From assembly GCA_017481875.1 (NCBI GenBank), contig JAFUOP010000014.1:1-64000 (forward strand): a stretch of 64,000 bases of DNA. Direction: 5' to 3'. Below the pieces are notes generated by a model. That model saw nothing but the letters and a program-made list of their open reading frames with translations, made no database searches and was not told the DNA's origin. Below are positions 4,323-44,816 of this stretch, piece after piece (the first letter of the stretch is position 1; each line of letters begins with the position of its first letter). The stretch comes from Bacteroidaceae bacterium. Its GTDB lineage: Bacteria > Bacteroidota > Bacteroidia > Bacteroidales > Bacteroidaceae. Made by a program: the position numbers and the translations under genes.

Positions 4323-7300
4323 TTATTTCGCCAAAGAGAACTTCATACTAATACCAAAATCGGTTGTAGTGGTGGGGTATGAGCTTGCCGAGATAAGCGG
4401 AATAGTCTTCTGCCTGTCGAAATACAGGCTTAGTGTCAGGTTCTTGCTATATGCGTAGTCGGCTGTAAATGAGTAGCTGAAAAGTTTGTTACCACTTGTA
4501 GCCTGTGTTGTCCCGAGGTCTATGCTACGGCATAGCGAGGTGTTGTTCTTAAATGAGAAATCGGCACGCAGGTTTATGTCGTTGCCTTTCTGCTCCTTGC
4601 TCTTGCTTGCTTTCTTGCCGCCATTGAATGGTTTGAAGTTTACAATCTTATAGCCCACATTCAGTGCCAGCTCTTCGGTGTGTGTCTCGACGAGTTGAAT
4701 TGCCGTGAGGCTTAAATTCAAAACACGCGACTTTATATATTTTGCACCTATGGTGAGGTTTTTGTCTGTTGTTACATTTAAGCCGATAAGCGGGCTGAAC
4801 GATTCGTTAATTGACACTGCGCCAATGTTGAAACGGCTGCTGGGAACGGGCAGGTTTGTTGTGGAGTTGCTTACAAAGCCTATTCCGTTGGTATATTCCA
4901 TATAAGTTGCGTATGTGCTATAAGAACCCACTGCATACACACTCTTATAGCCGTGCTCTATATTCACGCTCTTGAAGTACTTTGCAAAGAACGGCAGCTT
5001 GCCAAGGCCCGAATATTTTATCTTCCAGTTTGGTAGCATACGCATAAATTTGGGGAAGATATCGAGTGAACTGCTACCGGCATCGCCCCCGGTGTATGCA
5101 CTGAGGAATGCGGGTATAAGCACGTCCGAAGAGTACTTGTCCACTGCACCGTTTGCGGGATTATAGGGCTGCCCGGCAAGCGTGCTGCCTGTTGGGTATT
5201 TACTGTTGGCGTACTTGCTCTCAACGCGCCCGTGTATGGTTTCTATGTTTTCAATAAACTTGTTGTATGCCGATGATTTGTAGTTGTTGTCGGCATTTCC
5301 AAGGTCGAAAGCTGTGCCAATAGATATTGTTGTCATAGAGAAGCTGCCCGACTCGCTGAACGGCATTCCATCGTACATAAATTGTATGGTGCGGTTCTTG
5401 TTGCGTGTCCAGCTTGCATTGAGGTCTATTTTAAGGTCTGCAAGTGGCTCGAGAGTGGCTCTTACTTGCAGGTCTTCTCCCAGCGTGGTGGTGGCTTGTG
5501 CCGCTACGCTGTCGTTCTTGAGCAACCAATTCCTTTCGTGTGCCTTGCGCAGCCAACTGTCGCTTGTGAGGCCGAATGCAAAGTCGAGGCCCGGTGCCAT
5601 AAAGCCATTTGTGCTGTTTTGACCGAATATGTCGCCGGCGTCGGGCATAAACCCGGGAAGAGTCATTGCATAGGCATTGGTATAATTTATTGAGAACGTG
5701 CGCAACATCATAAGTGCACGTGTGGGGTATTGCATTGCTTTTGCCAGTTTGCTTCTGTCGCCTTCTTCTTTTGTTTTGGGAATGATGGTGAGCTTTACGG
5801 GTATAGTGTCTTTTGTTTTAATGAAGATACTGTTCTCGTCTATAACCTTGTATTTTACTTTATATGCCTTGCCTCCCTTTGTGCGTGCGTTAAGCTCAAA
5901 TTTCTTGCTGTTGAGGTTGTGGGCCACCACGGTACCGGTGTCGGGCGATAGGGTAATCTCTTTTGTAAAGGGCTTCACCTTTTTTGCCTTCACTGTTTTG
6001 GTTTTTTGTTTGCTGTTCTTGGCTTTTTTGGTGCTCTTGCTGCTTGCAAAGCGTTTGTTTGTCTCTTCAAGGTATGGGAAAATGTTGTACAGTTTCTCCA
6101 TGTTGAAGTTGCCTTTTAACGTAACATTTCTTTTGTTTGAAATATTGTTGCCAAGGTTAATGTTGTTTACTTTGTTACCGCGTGCCCAGTTGTACGATGC
6201 CGTGTAGTTTATGTCGGCACTGCTTATCCATTCAAATATAGGCAACTTGTTTATGGGCAGGTTGTACGATGCCGTAAAACTTTGTTGATAGCTTAACGGG
6301 CGGCCAAAATCTTTTATGCTGCGTTTAACAGAGTCTTTCCATATTGCATATTCATTGGGGAAACGTTCTTTGTTTACGGGCAGGAACGGCTCCTCTATTT
6401 CGGCATTTGTGCCGGTACTTATATTCATTTTAAGGTTTGTGGTGGGGTCCCACTTCATAGTGAAGTTGCGGTTCCAGTAGAACTGTTGCGAGAATGTGAG
6501 GGGTATATTCTCTCCGCCATCAATAGCATTTAAATCGCGACGTTGCATCTCGTGATAGTTGCGTATCATGTCGGTATTTGCTCCAATGCTTTGTGGCAAT
6601 GGGTTAATACCCCAGTCCTTGAGAATGCGTGTCCACTTGGATTTGCTCTTTATGCTTGCAAAAGGTTTTATTGTTTTTATGGGGCTGCTATAGTTGTAGT
6701 TTATCGATGCCTTCCAGTTGAGCTTGTTCTCCCAGTTTATGGTACTTCCGCTGTTCTCTGTGGTTGAGTATGAGAGGCTGAAAGAGAGGTTTGCCGGGTC
6801 GTAAGGCATAGGTGTGGGGCTCGATATATTTATCTTGGCATTACTTATGCTGAAGTTCTTTACTACCGAGTGTACTTCGGCTATGTTTTTAAGCGAGTCG
6901 CGGCTTGCTCCGTTGTATGAGTTGAGCACGTCGTCGAGCAATAGGTCGGTGTCGAACGGGCTGTACAATGGAGAAGAAACCTCCTCGGTAAAAGAGTAGT
7001 AGGTGGGCAATGATACTTTTGTAGCCTTGGGCAGGAAACGTCCGAGGTCGAATGTTCCGGTAATTGTGTATCGGTAATAGTCGTCGGTGCGTCGCGAAGC
7101 AAGCTTGTCTTCCAAGCCACCGAAGCCGGCTGTTTCCATACGGCCTTGGGCTGTGATGGTGCCCAGGTCGGATAGTTTAACATTGAGGTTTCCTTGTGCC
7201 GCCCAGCCGCTTTTGTTGTTGAAGCCTAAAAGGCGCATCTCGTTCACCCACACGGTTCCCGATTTTGCGGTTGATGTGTTGTTGCGCACTCCTATCATCA

Positions 7301-10300
7301 TTACCTTCACCTGCCCTAGTGTGGGGCTGCCGACTATGCTTATTCTGTTTTTGGGGTTCTCCTCGTCGTACTCGCTGTATATTGTAGTGTTGTTTATACC
7401 ACCAGTTTGGCTGTTGCGCAGAGTGTTTCGTTTTACCTTTATATTGGTGAGCTTGGCAAGCGGTATGTCAATCATATTTTCTGCGGGCCACACAATTGCT
7501 GCGGCAGCAGAGCTGTTGCTGTCGTATGAGCCGTGAGGTGTTATGTAAAGCGGTACCTCATATTCGTAGTAATTGCTCTTGTAGTCGGAGCCCAGTCTGA
7601 CAAAGAGCGAGAGGTCGTTATTGTCGAGCTGTGTAACATCAATCTCCGGTGCTTCGGCGTGTACGTAGAGCTGTATGCGCTCGTATTGGCGCACGTCGAG
7701 GTTGCTCTTTTTGTAAACGGCACGCGATTCCTTGCTGCCAAGGTTGTTTACCTGTAGCGCAAGGGCCTGTTCATTGTCTTGTCTCAGCTGGGGTTGGCTG
7801 GGGTCTATAATACGGCTTATACCGGGAGGCAGAACGTAGTTTACGGGTTGTCTGTCGCCGTGCTCCTCTATGTTTATTGCAGACATTGTGAACTCTCCCG
7901 AAATTGTTGGGGCAGTGTTGTTCTTCGATGCAATGGGTTGCTGGTATGGTCGCCAGTCGCCACGAATAAGCTCCATTGTGGCAAAGCGCAATGTGATTGG
8001 TTTGCGGAAGGAGGTCATGTACATACGCAAGAAGCGTATTGATGTGAAGTCTCGTATGTTGCCTACTGCTTTTTCGTATTCCTCAACGGGTATGCGGAAT
8101 TTATACCAATCGACACTCTCGGTATTTCCGTTGCGCAGTTTAGATGTTACAGTGCGCTTGTCGGTAATGTAGTTGCTGCCCACTTGCATGTTCTCGGGGC
8201 GCAATGATATGTGGTATTGGAAGAAGTTTTCATACTCGTCCATTGTGAAGTCCTGGTTGCTGTCTTCAACGTCGGGGGTGCTTTTTGCCGCACTGCTGTA
8301 GCTCTCTCCACCACCGGAAGTGGGCGAGTTGCCTTCGGTGTTGTTATAGTATTTATAACGCTCCATAATGCTCTTTTTAGCAGCGTCGTAGTCGCTTCCT
8401 CTAAAGTAGTGGTAATTATCACCTGCCGGGTCGGCTGCTATGCTGTCGTATATTTCGGCACGCACTCTTCCTTTTATGGCATTCAAATAATTCTGGTATG
8501 TGGGGTACATAGACTCGTCGGTGTTGCTGAGTCCGTCGAGGCCTACATCTTGCTGCGAACGGCTGTCGGCATTATTGTCAAATGCATATACAAGGCTGTT
8601 AATGGTGGGCACACGTCCCCAAACAGTCTCCTCGTAGTCGTAGCTGTTGCTGCTTGCCGGGAGGCCGTTTTCAAAGAATTTCTTGCCGTCTTTCAATATA
8701 TCCTCCGACACCTCGCCAAGGTTAAAGTAGAGGTCTCCGCCCATTTCCGCTTGTTCATAGATGAAGGGGTCGAGCAACCAAAACTCAATGTACTGAATAT
8801 TGGCACCCTCGAAGTCGGTGGTTGTGAGCTGGCGTGTTATACCGCCCCAACGTTTTTCGGGGTTGTTTAGCTTTCCGTTTACATCGAGGTCGGGGTCGAG
8901 GTTGTAGGGGCCTCTTTCATTGGGGTAGAATGTAACATTGAAGAGGGACAATGTGGAACTCTCGCCATAGGTCGATTCCTTATTGGGGTATAGCTCACGC
9001 TCATACACTTCTCTTACATAGTGGTTTGACAGCTGTTCAAGGTCGCTCTTTATGTGTGCCGGTGTAAGCGACGAGCTGCGACGTGTGAAGAGGGGGTCTA
9101 TTGTGTACCAGCTTATCAATGCTCTGTCGTACCCGGTGAGGATATTATTAGTGAGTTCGCTATAAGATAACCCTGTGGGGAGTGAGGAGAGCATCCAAGA
9201 TGATGCTTGTTTTATATCTATGCCGTTTTCGGTGCTCTCGAAGTCGTCTATGTACGATGCTTCGCTTTGTACATCACTCGATGTGCCGGCATCGAGCTTT
9301 GCAAATTCCGCAGTGAGGTTTATGCTCGACGGTGCTGTACAGCTTATAAGCGGTAGGCGGTCGAGAAGGTTTGTCAGCCATTGGCTTTGTTTTTTCCACG
9401 ATAGGTTGAAACCCCATATTCTGTTGTTCAGCGGCTCCGAGCCCATATCGACCTTTGAGGTGAGTGGTTTCTCGGTGAGCGACATAAATGTACCACCAAA
9501 GTTCAGCTCATTGGAAAAGTCGTATTTCCAGTTGAGGCCAAGCACTGTTTTTCTTTGCATATTGAAGAGTGTGTTGCTCTCCAATGATACCTGCACGTTG
9601 GTGCCGGCATCAATAATGCTCTGGTTCAGAATTGTAACAATACCCGACGCATAATCTACCTGGTAGTCGCTGTTCTCGGTGAGTGTTACACCGCCTGCGG
9701 TTACAACTACCGAGCCTCGTGGAATATTTGTGGAGCCGGTATTTATAACATTGGCGGCAGAGCCTGTGTATTCTCCAATAATGTAGAATTTGTCTTTCTC
9801 GGCAATCTGCTTGGCAACGGTTCTGGTAGAGTCGTACAGCTCTTGGAAAATATATTTATCGGCGAGCGCATTGTTGCCAATCTTCTCCTTTAAATAGTTT
9901 CCGAATGGTTCTATCGACGGGAAGAAAATGCGTCCCGATGCTGCATCTACGGTGTATCCCTCTATAAAATCGAATATTCCGTTGGGTGCTTCTTTGGTGT
10001 TGTTGCTGTCGAGCCTGTCAAGGTTGAGCAGCTGCAACAGTGTCTTGCTTTTCAGTGCTTCCTCGGGTAGGTATGTGATGTTGGTACCCAAACTGTCGCT
10101 TGCGTAGTAGATGTCCAGCTTAAAATCGTTGCTTTTAATGTTGCGGGTACCTAGTGAATATACGTTCTTCATCATAAGGTCCCAGCACGCATTTACAGGC
10201 GAGTTTGAATTGGGCTTTATAAGTTTGAGGAACAGGGTGCTCTTGGAGTCTTTTACATCGGTGGAAAACTCTCCTACCTGGTATGTCTGGCCACCGTAGG

Positions 10301-39365: not shown

Positions 39366-40076
39366 ATGGCAAAATTTAAAAGAATCCTTTTAAAGCTTAG
39401 TGGCGAAAGCCTAATGGGTGAGCAGGGTTACGGCATCGATGTTAAACGCCTTAACGAGTATGCAGAACAGATAAAAGAGGTTGCTGAAATGGGCGTTCAG
39501 GTGGGTATTGTAATTGGTGGCGGTAATATTTTCCGTGGTCTTACAGGTGCCGGTAAAGGTTTCGACCGTGTTAAAGGAGACCAGATGGGTATGATGGCTA
39601 CCGTTATAAACAGCCTTGCTTTGAGTTCGGCACTTGGTGCAGCCGGTGTCCCCAATAAAGTGCTTACAGCAATACGTATGGAGCCTGTTGGCGAGTTCTA
39701 TACAAAGTGGAAAGCCATTGAGGCTATGGAGGCCGGTATGGTGGTTATTATGGCTGCAGGTACCGGTAGCCCCTATTTTACAACAGACACCGGCTCTTCG
39801 TTGCGCGGTATTGAGATAGAGGCCGATGTAATGCTCAAAGGTACCCGTGTCGATGGCATCTACACAGCCGACCCTGAAAAGGACCCCACGGCTACTAAGT
39901 TCGACGATATAAGCTACGACGAGGTCCTGAGCCGCGGTCTCAAGGTTATGGATATGACAGCCACAGCAATGTGCAAGCAGAACAATTTGCCTATCTACGT
40001 ATTTAATATGGACATTGTGGGTAACCTTAAAAAGGTTATGAACGGTGAGGAGATAGGTACCTTCGTTCACCCTTAG
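39366..40076 (+). CDS. pyrH: Uridylate kinase
   Basis: The 236-aa bacterial UMP kinase phosphorylates UMP to UDP in pyrimidine synthesis and is a hexamer of the amino-acid-kinase fold. Motifs are RILLKLSGESLMG at the N-terminus, VIGGGNIFRG, DQMGMMATVINSL, GTGSPYFTTD and a late KVMDMTATAMC. Length is normal. It is monocistronic here, ended by an unusually long hairpin, with no neighbouring frr or tsf. Confidence 0.97.
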   Translation: MAKFKRILLKLSGESLMGEQGYGIDVKRLNEYAEQIKEVAEMGVQVGIVIGGGNIFRGLTGAGKGFDRVKGDQMGMMATVINSLALSSALGAAGVPNKVLTAIRMEPVGEFYTKWKAIEAMEAGMVVIMAAGTGSPYFTTDTGSSLRGIEIEADVMLKGTRVDGIYTADPEKDPTATKFDDISYDEVLSRGLKVMDMTATAMCKQNNLPIYVFNMDIVGNLKKVMNGEEIGTFVHP

Positions 40077-40086
40077 GCAATAGATA

Positions 40087-40139
40087 AATCTCATAAAAAG
40101 TGGTTCACTTCTAAGAAGTGAACCACTTTTTATGAGATT
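40087..40139. terminator. Long bidirectional terminator after pyrH and the Cthe_2159-type gene
   Basis: A perfect 25-bp stem (40087-40111 with 40115-40139) closes on a 3-nt loop. It ends pyrH and, in the other direction, the five-gene 40150-44659 operon. It is far longer than a terminator needs. Confidence 0.85.
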
Positions 40140-40149
40140 ATCCTATAGG

Positions 40150-41805
40150 TTATTGTGCATCTTGCGTGAGCAACCAACCGCCTGTTTGGGTAGTAGCTGT
40201 GTTTACAGCTGTGGCATTTGTGCTTATTGCGTGTACCGCGCCATTGTTTACAGTAATGCCGGTACCGTTAATTGCGTAGTCGTATGATTTTGCAAAAACA
40301 GAGCCACCGTTTATAATAATATTGTTGCCGGTGATGGCTCTTGTCTTGCGGTCGTACTCGGCTGCTACAAAATTATTTGCAGTGGCAAGAATTGTTATGT
40401 CGCCGCCGTTTATGGTCATAGTACCGTTACAATTGAATCCTTTTGAGCCCTCTCCCTTGCAATTTAGGGCTACGGTGCCATTGTCTATCAGTAGGTCGCC
40501 ATCGCATTTGAACCCTCCGGCAGTGGTGGTGTCGCTGCTCAATGAGCCATCGACAATACCTGTTATTTTGCCACCTCTTATGGTGATGTTGCCATTGCTG
40601 TTAATTATTTTTGAGCCGTTGCCTTTAACATCACCGTGTATGTTGCCGCCGTTGAGTGTGAAATCTCCACTTGTTTTGAAAATAGAGCTTTTTTCGTCGT
40701 TGGTGCGTGCTGTGATGTAGCCACCACTTATAATGGTATTGGCGGTGATGTTGGTATCAGTACCCTCGTATTCAGACTTCAAGGCTTCGCCATCGGCGTT
40801 TATTCCAAGCTTGCCCGCTTCTATTATAATGTTTCCTTTACCACAATCAACTCCATTGCCATCGGCTTTTATTTTCACAACGGGTGAAGCGTTTGCTGTT
40901 CGGCCCATTTGAAATTTATCGTTTGTGTTAAACCCGTCTTTCAGCGAAGTTATGGTGATGCTCCCGCTACGTATGCGTATGTAGTCGTCGCTGCATATTC
41001 CGTGCCCACCGAGGCTTGTTACATTGAGTGAGCCCGTTCCGTTGAAAATGAGTTGTCCTTCACTGAAAAGCGTGCCTTTTTGGTCCTCCTCGGAACCATC
41101 GGCAGCAATAGTTGGTGCAGCGTATGTCTCGCCATCGCACAATGTGTTTGTTGTGTTTGTTCCAAGGGTGAAATAAACTGTTTTGCCACTTTGTATGTTT
41201 ATGGCAGGTCCTGTGGGGTTGGTAAGCGATAGGTTGTTTACCATTATCTGGAACTTCTTGGTGCTGTATATCTTCAAAGAACCATTGCTGCAGGTTCCAC
41301 GTACAATGTAGCCTACCTTGCTGCGTGTAGAGTTTATAACAATGTGGCTGTTATTGGTTACGGTGTATGTAACGTCGCTCACGTTGCTGTTGCAGGTTAC
41401 GCCTGTTTCGCTAAAGTTTATGGTTATGATTTTTGTGGTACTGAAGTTCTCAATAAAATCGCCCCATTCGTCAATGAGTTCATCGGTTTCGATGGTCTCA
41501 ACAATTTCTGTAAAGTTTGTAGCATCTGCTGCGTCAAAAACCACTGTCCTGTTGTTGCTGTATGTGAGCTCTCTGCCACCATTGTTGCATGGAGATATGC
41601 TATCTACACAGGCTGTAGCATATTGGCTTGTTGTGCCATCGGTGCCCTGTACCGCCACCAACTGTTGCGCAGGGTCAAAGGTTATCTGCTTTACATTGGT
41701 GGTGTTTACGGCCTCAAATGTGTTGTCGCTGTTGTTCACATACAAGACCTGTGCCTGTGCGCCTATCGACGCAAGCACTATAAGTGCCGAAAGTATCCTT
41801 TTCAT
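40150..41805 (-). CDS. Cthe_2159-type carbohydrate-binding beta-helix protein
   Basis: The 551-aa exported protein has a signal peptide (MKRILSALIVLASIGAQAQ) and no lipobox. Residues about 25-75 form a small module (NTTNVKQITFDPAQQLV) that resembles the N-terminus of the neighbouring type IX substrate. The rest is a right-handed beta-helix of short repeating strands rich in Asn, Gly and Ile (for example NGNITIRGGKITGIVDG and GTMTINGGDITIL). This is the pattern of the Cthe_2159 carbohydrate-binding family, whose founder was reported to bind cellulose and acidic sugars. Its start overlaps the upstream stop codon (ATGA), and it is the last gene of the five-gene operon. The ligand here is unknown. 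Confidence 0.88.
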   Translation of the reverse strand: MKRILSALIVLASIGAQAQVLYVNNSDNTFEAVNTTNVKQITFDPAQQLVAVQGTDGTTSQYATACVDSISPCNNGGRELTYSNNRTVVFDAADATNFTEIVETIETDELIDEWGDFIENFSTTKIITINFSETGVTCNSNVSDVTYTVTNNSHIVINSTRSKVGYIVRGTCSNGSLKIYSTKKFQIMVNNLSLTNPTGPAINIQSGKTVYFTLGTNTTNTLCDGETYAAPTIAADGSEEDQKGTLFSEGQLIFNGTGSLNVTSLGGHGICSDDYIRIRSGSITITSLKDGFNTNDKFQMGRTANASPVVKIKADGNGVDCGKGNIIIEAGKLGINADGEALKSEYEGTDTNITANTIISGGYITARTNDEKSSIFKTSGDFTLNGGNIHGDVKGNGSKIINSNGNITIRGGKITGIVDGSLSSDTTTAGGFKCDGDLLIDNGTVALNCKGEGSKGFNCNGTMTINGGDITILATANNFVAAEYDRKTRAITGNNIIINGGSVFAKSYDYAINGTGITVNNGAVHAISTNATAVNTATTQTGGWLLTQDAQ

Positions 41806-42257
41806 CGCTTAATGAATTTTGCGGTCCTTCCCGATGCTTGCAACAGGTATATGCCCTTGGGTAGCTGTGCTATGGATATACTGCCGTTATTCTCTTGCTG
41901 TCGCACCTGAAATATGTGTGAACCATTAATATTATATACGTTGATAGTTTCACCTGCATTGCAGTTTATGGCTATTTCGTCGGCCGATAGATAGGTTATG
42001 AAGTTGCCCTCCTCGGGTGCAATGTCATCAATTCCGCTGAAATCGCCAAAGTATATGCGGCTTATCTCGCTCATTGGTGCCGTGTATGTGGTACCGTTGT
42101 TTTGCAGAATATTTACATCGCTACCATTGAATGTTATTCTGCGTAGCGCATCAAGCTCTATAACGCTGTTCTCGCTGCTTGTCTCTATCATCATTTGCTG
42201 TGCGAGAGCCGGTGCTGCCAGCAGCGCAGCTGCTATAAGTGGTAAAAGTTTTTTCAT
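41802..42257 (-). CDS. Small exported protein with type IX sorting domain
   Basis: At 151 aa this is an unusually small predicted type IX secretion substrate. A signal peptide (MKKLLPLIAAALLAAPALAQ) is followed by a module with SVIELDALRRITFNGSDV and EISRIYFGDFSGI. The C-terminal 65 residues look like a type A sorting domain (TINVYNINGSHIFQV, LPKGIYLLQASG, FIKR). There is almost no cargo between signal and tail. The ATG was chosen for the signal peptide; an upstream ATG adds 11 residues. It overlaps the next gene by 4 nt. SprA, the translocon such a tail would need, is encoded at 4-11.7 kb. Confidence 0.82.
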   Translation of the reverse strand: MKKLLPLIAAALLAAPALAQQMMIETSSENSVIELDALRRITFNGSDVNILQNNGTTYTAPMSEISRIYFGDFSGIDDIAPEEGNFITYLSADEIAINCNAGETINVYNINGSHIFQVRQQENNGSISIAQLPKGIYLLQASGRTAKFIKR

Positions 42258-42267
42258 ATTATTTAAA

Positions 42268-43140
42268 TTATAAGTCAATTGAATATCCAAGGCCTATTGC
42301 GTGTGTGTTGGCTTCGCCCTTCTCGCCGGCTTTCTCAAACAGGTAATAGAACTCAATTGAGTTGTCTTTGTTTATCTTGTAGCTTGCGCCTATGCGTGAG
42401 CGCAGTTTCTCAAAACCTCTCCATTTGTCCAGGCGGCTGTAGAGCTCGGTAGATACAAAGGGGTTAACCTTGCATTTGGGAATATCCCATTTTGCAGTGA
42501 TGCGCGAACGCAGAACGGTGTTGTTCTTGTGCTCTTTGAGTTCGGGCTCTGTTCTTACAGGCAACCATTCTTTGTATTCTAATGCATTGCCCTCCTCGTC
42601 GAACATTATATTGCCATTCTCGTCTATTTGTGGCAGTATCTCAAAGCGGTGTTTCTCTTCATCGGTCATTGCCGAATTGGTACGTGTGTATTGCACGCGT
42701 TCGCGTAACGATATCTCTACACGCCCAATTTTGTACTCGCCGGTAAAAGAGAAATGGAAACGGTTTCTCTCGGTGTGGTATGCCTGGTCGTAGTTGTAGC
42801 CATCATACTCATTGTTATCATCGTCAAAGTGGTCTTTTGCTTCTCCGGGGTAGTAACCCATTATAAATATATAACCGGCATTAGCCTTAAGCCAACTGTT
42901 TATTTTGTACTGTCCGCTTATTCCGGCTGCAAAACGCTCTATATCTTTCAAGTAGTCGTTGCTGCGGAACTCAAGCTCTGCACCCACCTTGAATTTCTTG
43001 TTTATCTTCTTTGAAGCCTCGAATGTGGTCCAGAGGCCATAGTTGTCGTCATCGGCCTTTGCTGTGCTGAATGCCGAGAATATGAATGCAAATGCTGCTA
43101 TGAGCGCAAATGCTTTTTTAGTTCTTGATTTTGAATTCAT
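42268..43140 (-). CDS. DUF2490 outer membrane beta-barrel protein
   Basis: The 290-aa protein has a signal peptide (about 1-29, ending FSTAKAD) and alternating hydrophobic/aromatic strands typical of a 10-12-strand outer membrane barrel. Examples are YGLWTTFEASKKINKKF, RFHFSFTGEYKIGRVEISL and IEFYYLFEKAGEKG. It ends in GLGYSIDL with a terminal hydrophobic residue. It matches DUF2490 as I recognise it. The start lies inside the last 23 nt of the DUF4956 gene, so translation is coupled. In this operon it is a candidate outer membrane conduit or anchor. Confidence 0.85.
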   Translation of the reverse strand: MNSKSRTKKAFALIAAFAFIFSAFSTAKADDDNYGLWTTFEASKKINKKFKVGAELEFRSNDYLKDIERFAAGISGQYKINSWLKANAGYIFIMGYYPGEAKDHFDDDNNEYDGYNYDQAYHTERNRFHFSFTGEYKIGRVEISLRERVQYTRTNSAMTDEEKHRFEILPQIDENGNIMFDEEGNALEYKEWLPVRTEPELKEHKNNTVLRSRITAKWDIPKCKVNPFVSTELYSRLDKWRGFEKLRSRIGASYKINKDNSIEFYYLFEKAGEKGEANTHAIGLGYSIDL

Positions 43141-43885
43141 CGCTTGGTGCTTTTATGGTTGTATCTACTGAATTAGTTGCATTGCCGTTAATGGGGCGGT
43201 AGTACATCTTTATTATAGCCGCATCTTTTAGAAAATCTATACCACCTACCTCTACTTTCACAATATCCAGCCCTGTACGTTTTTTCAGGTCTGCAATAAG
43301 TTCTTCCTCTTTGTCGGGGGTGATAAGGTCCATGTTGTCATACTTTATAACTTTGTACGAAAGGTGGCGTATAACCAAGTTGCTCTCGCACACCCAAACC
43401 GATGCAATAAACAACAGATTGGCAAGAACCATCTCCGAGTATGACAATTCCTCTATCACAAGGCCGTTTATGGCACTCATTGCAATTATTATAAACAGGT
43501 ATGTCATTTCACGTATCGACACCTGCTCGGTGCGGTAACGTATGATGCTGAATATGGCAAAAAGGCCAAGTGCAAAGCCTGTCTTAAGTTTTACACCACC
43601 CAATAGGTATATGAGCAAGAAAATGCTTATGGCTATGAGAATGAATGTGAAAAAGTATTCACCCTTTTTACATTTGGGGTAGTAGAAACCGCGTACAACT
43701 ATGCCTACAAAAAACAGGTTTATTAAAAAACCGATAAGTAGGTTACTCATACCCGCGAGGTTCCATAAAGTGTTTTCGGCTACGCCTGCAGTGGCTGCTC
43801 CTCCTGTTATAAAATCCTCTCCTAATGTTGCGAGGGCGTTCACGGTCTGCGCTCCGCCTGCAAGAAATGTCATAAGTAAATCCAT
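43118..43885 (-). CDS. DUF4956 membrane protein
   Basis: The 255-aa protein has four to five membrane helices (about 46-66, 77-95, 101-114, 126-144 and 150-166) and a soluble C-terminal alpha/beta domain (about 170-255). The signature of DUF4956 is clear: LKTGFALGLFAIFSIIRYRTE followed by VSIREMTYLFIIIAMSAIN. The family is repeatedly found beside VTC-domain polymerase genes and CotH or Cthe_2159 proteins; its function is unknown. Here it begins 3 nt after the VTC-domain gene and overlaps the DUF2490 gene by 23 nt. I infer that it supplies the membrane part for the soluble VTC protein. Confidence 0.9.
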   Translation of the reverse strand: MDLLMTFLAGGAQTVNALATLGEDFITGGAATAGVAENTLWNLAGMSNLLIGFLINLFFVGIVVRGFYYPKCKKGEYFFTFILIAISIFLLIYLLGGVKLKTGFALGLFAIFSIIRYRTEQVSIREMTYLFIIIAMSAINGLVIEELSYSEMVLANLLFIASVWVCESNLVIRHLSYKVIKYDNMDLITPDKEEELIADLKKRTGLDIVKVEVGGIDFLKDAAIIKMYYRPINGNATNSVDTTIKAPSDEFKIKN

Positions 43886-43888
43886 ATT

Positions 43889-44659
43889 CTATTTGTGTTG
43901 GTTTTCAAGTTTTTCAATCATTCTCAGTCTCTCTTTGAAATTGTTCCTTTTCAATTCCTTGTTTGTGAGAGCACTGCCTATGCAGTATTTGCTGAACCCC
44001 GATTTCCTTATCCTCAACTTGCGTATAATCTCCAATGCCGGCGATGGAACGTTGCCGTCGCGCTTGAGCTCTATGATGGCTACGTGCGAAAGGCTGTCGC
44101 GCCCATCGCTCTTCAGGTGGTGGAAACGCAAGTTGAAATCAATGGTCAATCGCTCGGTTTTCCCCATGTTCACCAATGTTATGCGGTTGAACCAGTTTTC
44201 TATAACGGGTGAAATTTCCTCCAATTTGTACCAAGCATATTCTGCAAGGAATGGAACAACCCTTTCGCTTTCGGCCTGCAACGATTCGAGGCTGTTTACA
44301 AGTATGCGCTTTTTCTTTGTGCGCCCGTGGTTGTTTTTGTTCTTTACCTCTAAAAAAGTGTCGTCTGTGTCCAGGTAGGTGCGCACACGTATTTTCTCTC
44401 TCACCTGCTTGCCACAATGGTGCATTCTGTACATCTTGTAGTCGGCAGTGTCTAAATAGGTGGTGTGGTAGCCTGCGAGCCTCTCGTCGTCCTTTACCTG
44501 TATATAGTATTTACCCTGCACGGCAAGCAAAAAATCGTTTAATTGCGCAATTGTAGCAACGAACTTCGTGTCGGTGCGGTTCATTAGTTTTATGCACTTC
44601 ATCTCATCGAGGGTGATGGGGGGCAGTTGCTTGGCTTTTTCTGTAATTGCGCTAATCAT
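43889..44659 (-). CDS. VTC-type polyphosphate polymerase domain protein
   Basis: The 256-aa cytosolic protein matches the VTC domain, a tunnel fold that in yeast Vtc4 polymerises polyphosphate from ATP. Alternating charged strands that would line the tunnel are visible: NRTDTKF (Arg28, Lys32), KIRVRTYLD (Lys89, Arg91, Arg93), FLEVKNK (Glu104, Lys106, Lys108), RLTIDFNLRF (Arg170), IIELKR (Glu197, Lys199) and SGFSKY (Lys224). There is no membrane segment and no SPX domain. It is the first gene of the five-gene operon. It could act on another polyanion; polyphosphate synthesis is inferred from the family only. Confidence 0.9.
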   Translation of the reverse strand: MISAITEKAKQLPPITLDEMKCIKLMNRTDTKFVATIAQLNDFLLAVQGKYYIQVKDDERLAGYHTTYLDTADYKMYRMHHCGKQVREKIRVRTYLDTDDTFLEVKNKNNHGRTKKKRILVNSLESLQAESERVVPFLAEYAWYKLEEISPVIENWFNRITLVNMGKTERLTIDFNLRFHHLKSDGRDSLSHVAIIELKRDGNVPSPALEIIRKLRIRKSGFSKYCIGSALTNKELKRNNFKERLRMIEKLENQHK

Positions 44660-44784: not shown

Positions 44785-44816
44785 GTTGTTTCATTGCATT
44801 CTATTGTATATTTTTG
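44785..44816 (+). promoter_or_regulatory. Promoter of the HD-domain gene
   Basis: GTTG at 44785-44788, 20 nt of spacer, TAttTTTG at 44809-44816. The predicted leader is short (about 17 nt), which supports the ATG at 44840. Confidence 0.65.

Follow-up and report, generated by a model that had tools for sequence, protein, structure and literature searches.

What might five genes do together when they are packed into a single operon and their predicted products reach from the cytosol to the cell surface? We addressed this question for the operon at positions 40150-44659 of a 64,000-nucleotide stretch of DNA from a Bacteroidaceae bacterium (hereafter, the window; assembly GCA_017481875.1, contig JAFUOP010000014.1, positions 1 to 64,000). 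Five minus-strand open reading frames (ORFs) occupy this region and encode, in order, a VTC-domain protein, a DUF4956 protein, a DUF2490 protein, a small substrate of the type IX secretion system (T9SS) and a beta-helix protein of the Cthe_2159 family. The original prediction took them for a possible envelope-spanning system that makes and exports an anionic polymer, possibly polyphosphate. Its ORFs, positions and family names were borne out by the ORF check and by Pfam matches that all exceed the respective family cut-offs, and the spacings it gave for successive genes (+3, -23, +10 and -4 nt) proved exact. As a whole, this interpretation is partly supported.

The best single reading of the operon is an envelope-spanning module for polyphosphate synthesis and export, which we propose tentatively, rating its chances, as judged from sequence, at somewhat less than even. 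The VTC protein, in which the relevant residues are conserved, would polymerise phosphate from ATP in the cytosol; the chain would be passed to DUF4956, its genetically linked inner-membrane partner, which might act as a channel, and in this lineage the polymer would cross the outer membrane via the DUF2490 barrel. Outside the cell, a set of surface proteins whose genes replace one another between loci (the beta-helix protein with a T9SS-tailed partner here, a CotH kinase elsewhere) could hold, organise or use the polymer. If so, even bacteria devoid of polyphosphate kinases would produce polyphosphate, by means of a eukaryote-like enzyme, and deposit it extracellularly, an unrecognised bacterial use of phosphate polymers outside the cell; the eukaryotic VTC complex would be tied to a bacterial export module, and both DUF4956 and DUF2490 would gain a function.

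A nearly inseparable gene pair

In an even sample of the phylum comprising 148 genomes, we detected DUF4956 in 45, VTC in 29, DUF2490 in 55 and Cthe_2159 in 6 (4 of these over the cut-off). Every VTC genome also encodes DUF4956 (29/29), and 32 of the 33 VTC matches have DUF4956 at a distance of no more than about 3 kb (coordinates compared by eye), the sole match located elsewhere being a 54-position fragment in genome G062. Thus, the linkage for which the original prediction proposed a gene-neighbourhood search was found, the pair being nearly inseparable, and VTC and DUF4956 very probably form a functional pair.

Closer to the window, the operon is real and conserved. DUF4956 is present in 23 of the 25 genomes of the genus, the window's own included, with no match in G006 (63% complete) and G007 (94% complete). 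Apart from the window, 22 loci of the genus were compared: 21 show the same five-gene order, and the remaining one (L029) is cut by the contig edge inside DUF2490. Of these 22 loci, 16 keep the -23 overlap, and 20 of 21 keep the -4 overlap. Part of this synteny reflects vertical inheritance because the flanking genes are mostly conserved as well. Among the seven order-level loci, from which three weaker DUF4956 matches (G038:C344, G033 and G037) were left out, VTC adjoins DUF4956 in six, and DUF2490 is also present in three.

We further analysed 80 named Bacteroidota loci, the best 80 of 569 confirmed stretches and, therefore, close relatives. Here, too, the pairing exceeds what chance would give: in 77 of these, the gene directly upstream of DUF4956 is VTC; in two others, both cut by a contig end, the sequence begins inside DUF4956 and contains no VTC (L086 and L126), and in L054, VTC and DUF4956 share an ORF. 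A gene fusion in L054 was ruled out, given that this ORF runs through a stretch of N. Altogether, VTC is found near DUF4956 in 78 of the 80 loci, DUF2490 in 77, the beta-helix protein in 46 and the small T9SS-tail protein in 31, with all four partners together in 26.

The core pair has a precedent in the Pel system of Gram-positive bacteria, where CotH, a polyphosphate polymerase and DUF4956 have been described as accessory genes of Pel clusters (PMC7112168), and where the Streptococcus intermedius counterparts, SIR_1592-1594, have been deleted (PMC12345266). As in that accessory module, a VTC-type polymerase candidate adjoins DUF4956 in the window (SIR_1592 would be the DUF4956 protein, judging by gene order and topology); unlike it, the operon includes a DUF2490 barrel, a T9SS protein and a beta-helix protein, and no CotH. 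The authors of PMC12345266 state that they encountered this three-gene synteny only together with Pel. In the genomes analysed here, the VTC-DUF4956-CotH set does occur outside Pel: PelG exceeds the cut-off in 2 of the 148 phylum genomes and in 0/29 VTC genomes (two of these have a match below the cut-off), and the window genome, 76% complete, yielded no PelG match. The statement of the original prediction that no function had been assigned to the set stands, but the core had already been described, with CotH, as accessory to Pel in the sources cited above; among the literature matches listed, which mostly exclude subscription papers, no title deals with the five-gene set or with a tested bacterial VTC enzyme.

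The candidate polymerase and its membrane partner

The VTC-domain (triphosphate tunnel) protein (43889-44659, minus strand, 256 aa) contains neither a signal peptide nor a membrane helix, and its domain scores 99 bits in Pfam against a family cut-off of 23 (PF09359, 4e-28). A profile built from a more varied set of 20 bacterial VTC proteins matches yeast Vtc4 over the whole domain at 1.4e-19, which allowed us to map the tunnel residues: K200, R264, R266, K281 and R361 of Vtc4 correspond to K32, R91, R93, K106 and R159 of the window protein, and R373, E426, K428 and K458 correspond to R170, E197, K199 and K224. These nine columns are identical in all 20 bacterial proteins, except that R170 is replaced by Lys in one, so that the protein retains the basic tunnel residues that the original prediction had singled out for checking. 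The residues kept in 20/20 include R91, R93 and E197, the counterparts of R264, R266 and E426, changes at which impaired Vtc4 (PMC9911596), and K224, the counterpart of Lys-458, named as catalytic (PMC4641920). Along the predicted exit of the chain, R28 is basic in 19/20 and K199 in 20/20, and D30 is Asp or Glu in 20/20. We consider this protein a candidate polyphosphate polymerase, one that appears polymerase-like with a single hydrolase-like feature. In L163 (5600-7936), the VTC domain comprises residues 518-743 of a 778-aa ORF, the first 517 residues of which have no Pfam match, and the start of which may be misplaced.

The yeast VTC complex (Vtc1/Vtc3/Vtc4), which couples synthesis with passage of the chain through a membrane channel (PMC9911596), resembles the pair described here in that each joins a membrane partner to a tunnel enzyme, and the two enzymes share their family and their tunnel residues; in our case, the link is a genetic one. 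The differences are that here the two are separate proteins, that one position is acidic, that the Pfam scan yielded no SPX match and that Pfam does not identify DUF4956 with the Vtc membrane domain.

The polyphosphate kinases PPK1 and PPK2 were not found in the genus (0/25 genomes for each); in the 16 other genomes of the order, PPK1 is present in 11 and PPK2 in 6. Several genus genomes are incomplete, yet 25 joint misses are unlikely to arise by chance, which leaves VTC as the one candidate polymerase detected in the genus.

The DUF4956 protein (43118-43885, minus strand, 255 aa; PF16316, 2e-52) shows four to five hydrophobic peaks in the hydropathy profile, followed by a soluble C-terminal part. 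Among 150 aligned DUF4956 proteins, R118 is kept in all and R116 in 141. DUF4956 is a candidate channel or partner of VTC, and the best sign that it takes part in envelope transport comes from its HlyD- and OEP-type neighbours. Locus L148 (6358-13249), a compact tripartite form of the system, contains in a row genes for CotH, DUF4956, a HlyD-type adaptor, a TolC-type OEP, VTC and a lamin-tail protein. A HlyD-type gene comes after DUF4956 also in L152 and L164; the window operon contains no HlyD-type adaptor or TolC-type OEP gene. In the phylum sample, 16 of the 45 DUF4956 genomes lack VTC, and 12 of these belong to a single family, f38, with one common layout (L168-L179). In the one f38 locus scanned (L171, 7307-11554), DUF4956 is found beside DUF6580, a short-chain dehydrogenase and HlyD-like and OEP-like proteins, both of the latter below the Pfam cut-off. 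This layout may represent a distinct exporter based on DUF4956. We also compared DUF4956 with seven MgtC proteins of relatives, given that the Streptococcus membrane partner is described as MgtC-like (PMC12345266); the similarity stays weak (hhalign probability 31.6), and DUF4956 is not adopted here as an MgtC relative.

Counterevidence and alternative functions

Several observations weigh against an export module of this kind. On the enzymatic side, the window VTC protein alone matched no solved structure, and a profile of 14 relatives matched only Vtc2, at 0.05. Furthermore, all 20 bacterial proteins carry Asp or Glu where Vtc4 has Thr198, a position that neighbours Lys200 in the motif; judged by its place in the motif, this acidic residue seems to resemble Glu-4 of the acidic patch of a plant tripolyphosphatase, a patch said to be lacking in Vtc4 (PMC4641920). 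In S. intermedius, Pel production rose upon deletion of the membrane protein and fell upon deletion of CotH, with aggregation reduced in both mutants, and no change, in aggregation or otherwise, is reported, in the accessible text, for deletion of the polymerase homologue (PMC12345266). PPK1 is also present in 5 of the 6 order-level VTC genomes, which rules out VTC as a simple replacement of PPK (VTC coexists with PPK1 also in a control genome, Bacteroides ihuae). Within the genus itself, G007 has no DUF4956 match despite being 94% complete, possibly due to a natural loss of the operon.

As for the outer parts, DUF2490 lies beside VTC-DUF4956 in just 9 of the 29 VTC genomes of the phylum sample, as determined by eye (a script with a narrower profile saw it in 6 of 30 fetched loci), and Cthe_2159 does so, again by eye, solely in the window's own genome. 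In most of these genomes, then, DUF2490 and the surface genes are not beside the pair, an outcome that the original prediction itself had named as speaking against it and that applies to the outer parts. From this distribution, it follows that VTC-DUF4956 is the core, that DUF2490 is an addition strong in close relatives and that the outside proteins fill a variable slot. The outer parts of the operon are accordingly lineage-specific: of the proposed envelope-spanning set, the core holds generally, with DUF4956 accompanied by envelope-export genes elsewhere, and the outer components do not.

The most probable of the alternatives, although we consider it unlikely, is that VTC is a triphosphate or polyphosphate hydrolase, or a sensor, which regulates DUF4956, with the latter acting on surface polysaccharide or protein assembly and no polyphosphate being exported. 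The acidic residue at the Thr198 position, the different aggregation phenotypes of the two Streptococcus deletions and the existence of DUF4956 without VTC are all compatible with this possibility, but the positions of R196, K428 and K458 of Vtc4 stay basic, and PMC4641920 gives hydrolases glutamates in that region and a dispensable counterpart of Lys-458.

A further alternative, which we regard as quite unlikely, is a supply of phosphate for surface phosphorylation: polyphosphate, or some other activated phosphate, would be produced and exported by VTC-DUF4956 and would then serve secreted CotH-type kinases as their donor at sites short of ATP, in which case the beta-helix loci would be a variant with another surface client. 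The distribution of CotH is suggestive in this respect. In the phylum sample, CotH is encoded in 29/29 VTC genomes vs 31/119 others and in 42/45 DUF4956 genomes vs 18/103 others, associations for which the Fisher values ignore kinship; in the sample of relatives, it is present in 27 of the 29 genomes with VTC beside DUF4956 vs 5 of the remaining 12 genomes, to which the VTC search did not extend. By Pfam coordinates, among the matches listed, CotH lies within the locus in L047, L100, L137, L148, L152, L153 and L163. A scan for T9SS tails on CotH covered all of these loci except L153: the proteins of L047, L137 and L152 carry a tail that scores above the cut-off, that of L163 has one scoring below it, and none was detected in L100 and L148. 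In addition, PMC7821199 calls the source of ATP for the spore-coat CotH an unanswered question. Against the donor role, the same source reports that CotH uses ATP in vitro, and each gene occurs without the other: CotH without VTC in Bacillus subtilis, as well as in the 31 phylum genomes noted above, and VTC without CotH in B. ihuae, G030 and G038. Two other control genomes, Corynebacterium glutamicum and Methanosarcina acetivorans, have all three genes. In the window genome, both CotH proteins are encoded on other contigs, and neither is contiguous with the operon (L194, 1274-4171, 965 aa; L195, 1106-4738, 1210 aa); for these two, neither Pfam nor NCBIfam detects a sorting tail, though by eye their ends look tail-like.

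A related and improbable extension of the export module is that the exported polyphosphate would serve as an extracellular phosphate currency where ATP is absent, used for surface phosphorylation by secreted CotH-type kinases or, in this operon, by a T9SS-anchored beta-helix scaffold. If the module is real, the phosphate donor of secreted CotH kinases becomes directly testable in laboratory strains, and surface phosphorylation of this kind would answer the question of its source.

Outer proteins and operon boundaries

That VTC-DUF4956 is the functional unit and the DUF2490, T9SS and beta-helix genes are co-transcribed neighbours with an unrelated surface role appears rather improbable: only the core pair holds across the phylum sample and the genus synteny is in part inherited, but DUF2490 stays near DUF4956 in 77/80 close relatives whose other flanks differ, the gene overlaps are kept and the T9SS companion follows the anchor type of the beta-helix protein.

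The DUF2490 protein (42268-43140, minus strand, 290 aa; PF10677, 9e-31), a putative outer-membrane porin, has a hydrophobic N-terminus and belongs to a family listed as putative porins, TC 1.B.81 (PMC4827864). In Bacteroides thetaiotaomicron, BT3498-BT3499 encode DUF4956 followed by DUF2490, evidently an operon of the same type; in an iron-response study, these genes appear only as a table row, in the accessible text, with values of -7.6 and 0.175, and therefore no firm iron response can be claimed (PMC10434189).

The T9SS substrate (41802-42257, minus strand, 151 aa; PF18962, 7e-8; TIGR04183, 7e-9) starts with the ATG at 42257, the mechanical ORF beginning earlier, at 42290, and consists of a signal peptide, an N-terminal module and a C-terminal type A sorting tail. 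The N-terminal module is shared with the beta-helix protein according to one hhalign comparison (probability 91, E 1.1e-6); BLASTP detected no significant similarity between the two proteins. The beta-helix protein (40150-41805, minus strand, 551 aa; PF14262, 1e-46) carries an ordinary signal peptide by eye, no lipobox and no TIGR04183 sorting-tail match, and is similar to the solved chain 4peu_A (2.6e-6). It belongs to the same family as Cthe_2159 of Clostridium thermocellum, the structure of which has been solved (4peu/4phb); for the C. thermocellum protein, binding of cellulose and of polygalacturonic acid has been reported (PMC6712302).

The surface slot differs among loci, being filled by a CotH kinase in some and in others by Cthe_2159, either alone or accompanied by the T9SS protein. 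The T9SS companion is present in 25 of the 29 loci where the beta-helix protein has an ordinary signal peptide vs 2 of the 17 where it has a lipobox (p = 8e-7), an association that is suggestive only because the lipobox rule was chosen after a looser pattern, which caught Tyr-Val-Cys in mature parts, gave p = 0.23; inspection by eye shows that, even under the new rule, at least three lipoproteins end up in the wrong class (L070, L101 and L128). Given this association with anchor type, the small T9SS protein is probably a surface anchor or escort of a beta-helix protein that has no lipid anchor.

Other Cthe_2159 proteins were also noted. The window genome encodes a second one on another contig (L196, 2151-4226, 691 aa). 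In L095 (3318-5948) and L099 (2245-4848), proteins of 876 and 867 aa, respectively, are encoded upstream rather than downstream of the VTC gene, the one in L099 bearing CarboxypepD_reg repeats. In L055, from Bacteroides timonensis, genes for a histidine kinase and a LytTR regulator come after the beta-helix gene. The T9SS is present in the window genome, as indicated by its large channel protein SprA, which is encoded in the window itself (6924-8492, minus strand); SprA and CotH are both still found in G007.

Beyond the VTC end of the operon, a divergent gene begins near 44800. The single promoter that the original prediction placed in front of the operon was not recovered by either scan. The Bacteroidota promoter motif is TAnnTTTG, and the 201 nt that precede the ATG of VTC contain no copy of it on the minus strand. 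A single sigma-70-like site on that strand is located in this stretch (44825-44798, 9/12 positions), and the region is not enriched in such sites relative to shuffled sequences (13 vs 10.5, sd 3.7), so that neither scan yields a convincing promoter. At the opposite end, the predicted 25-bp hairpin was found behind the beta-helix gene (40087-40139, strand not assigned), with a fold energy of -40 kcal/mol when folded on the minus strand. By fold energy and the terminator scan, it is a probable shared terminator, one that may serve both flanking genes because it is located between convergent genes, the neighbour being a plus-strand gene, identified by eye as pyrH, that ends at 40076.

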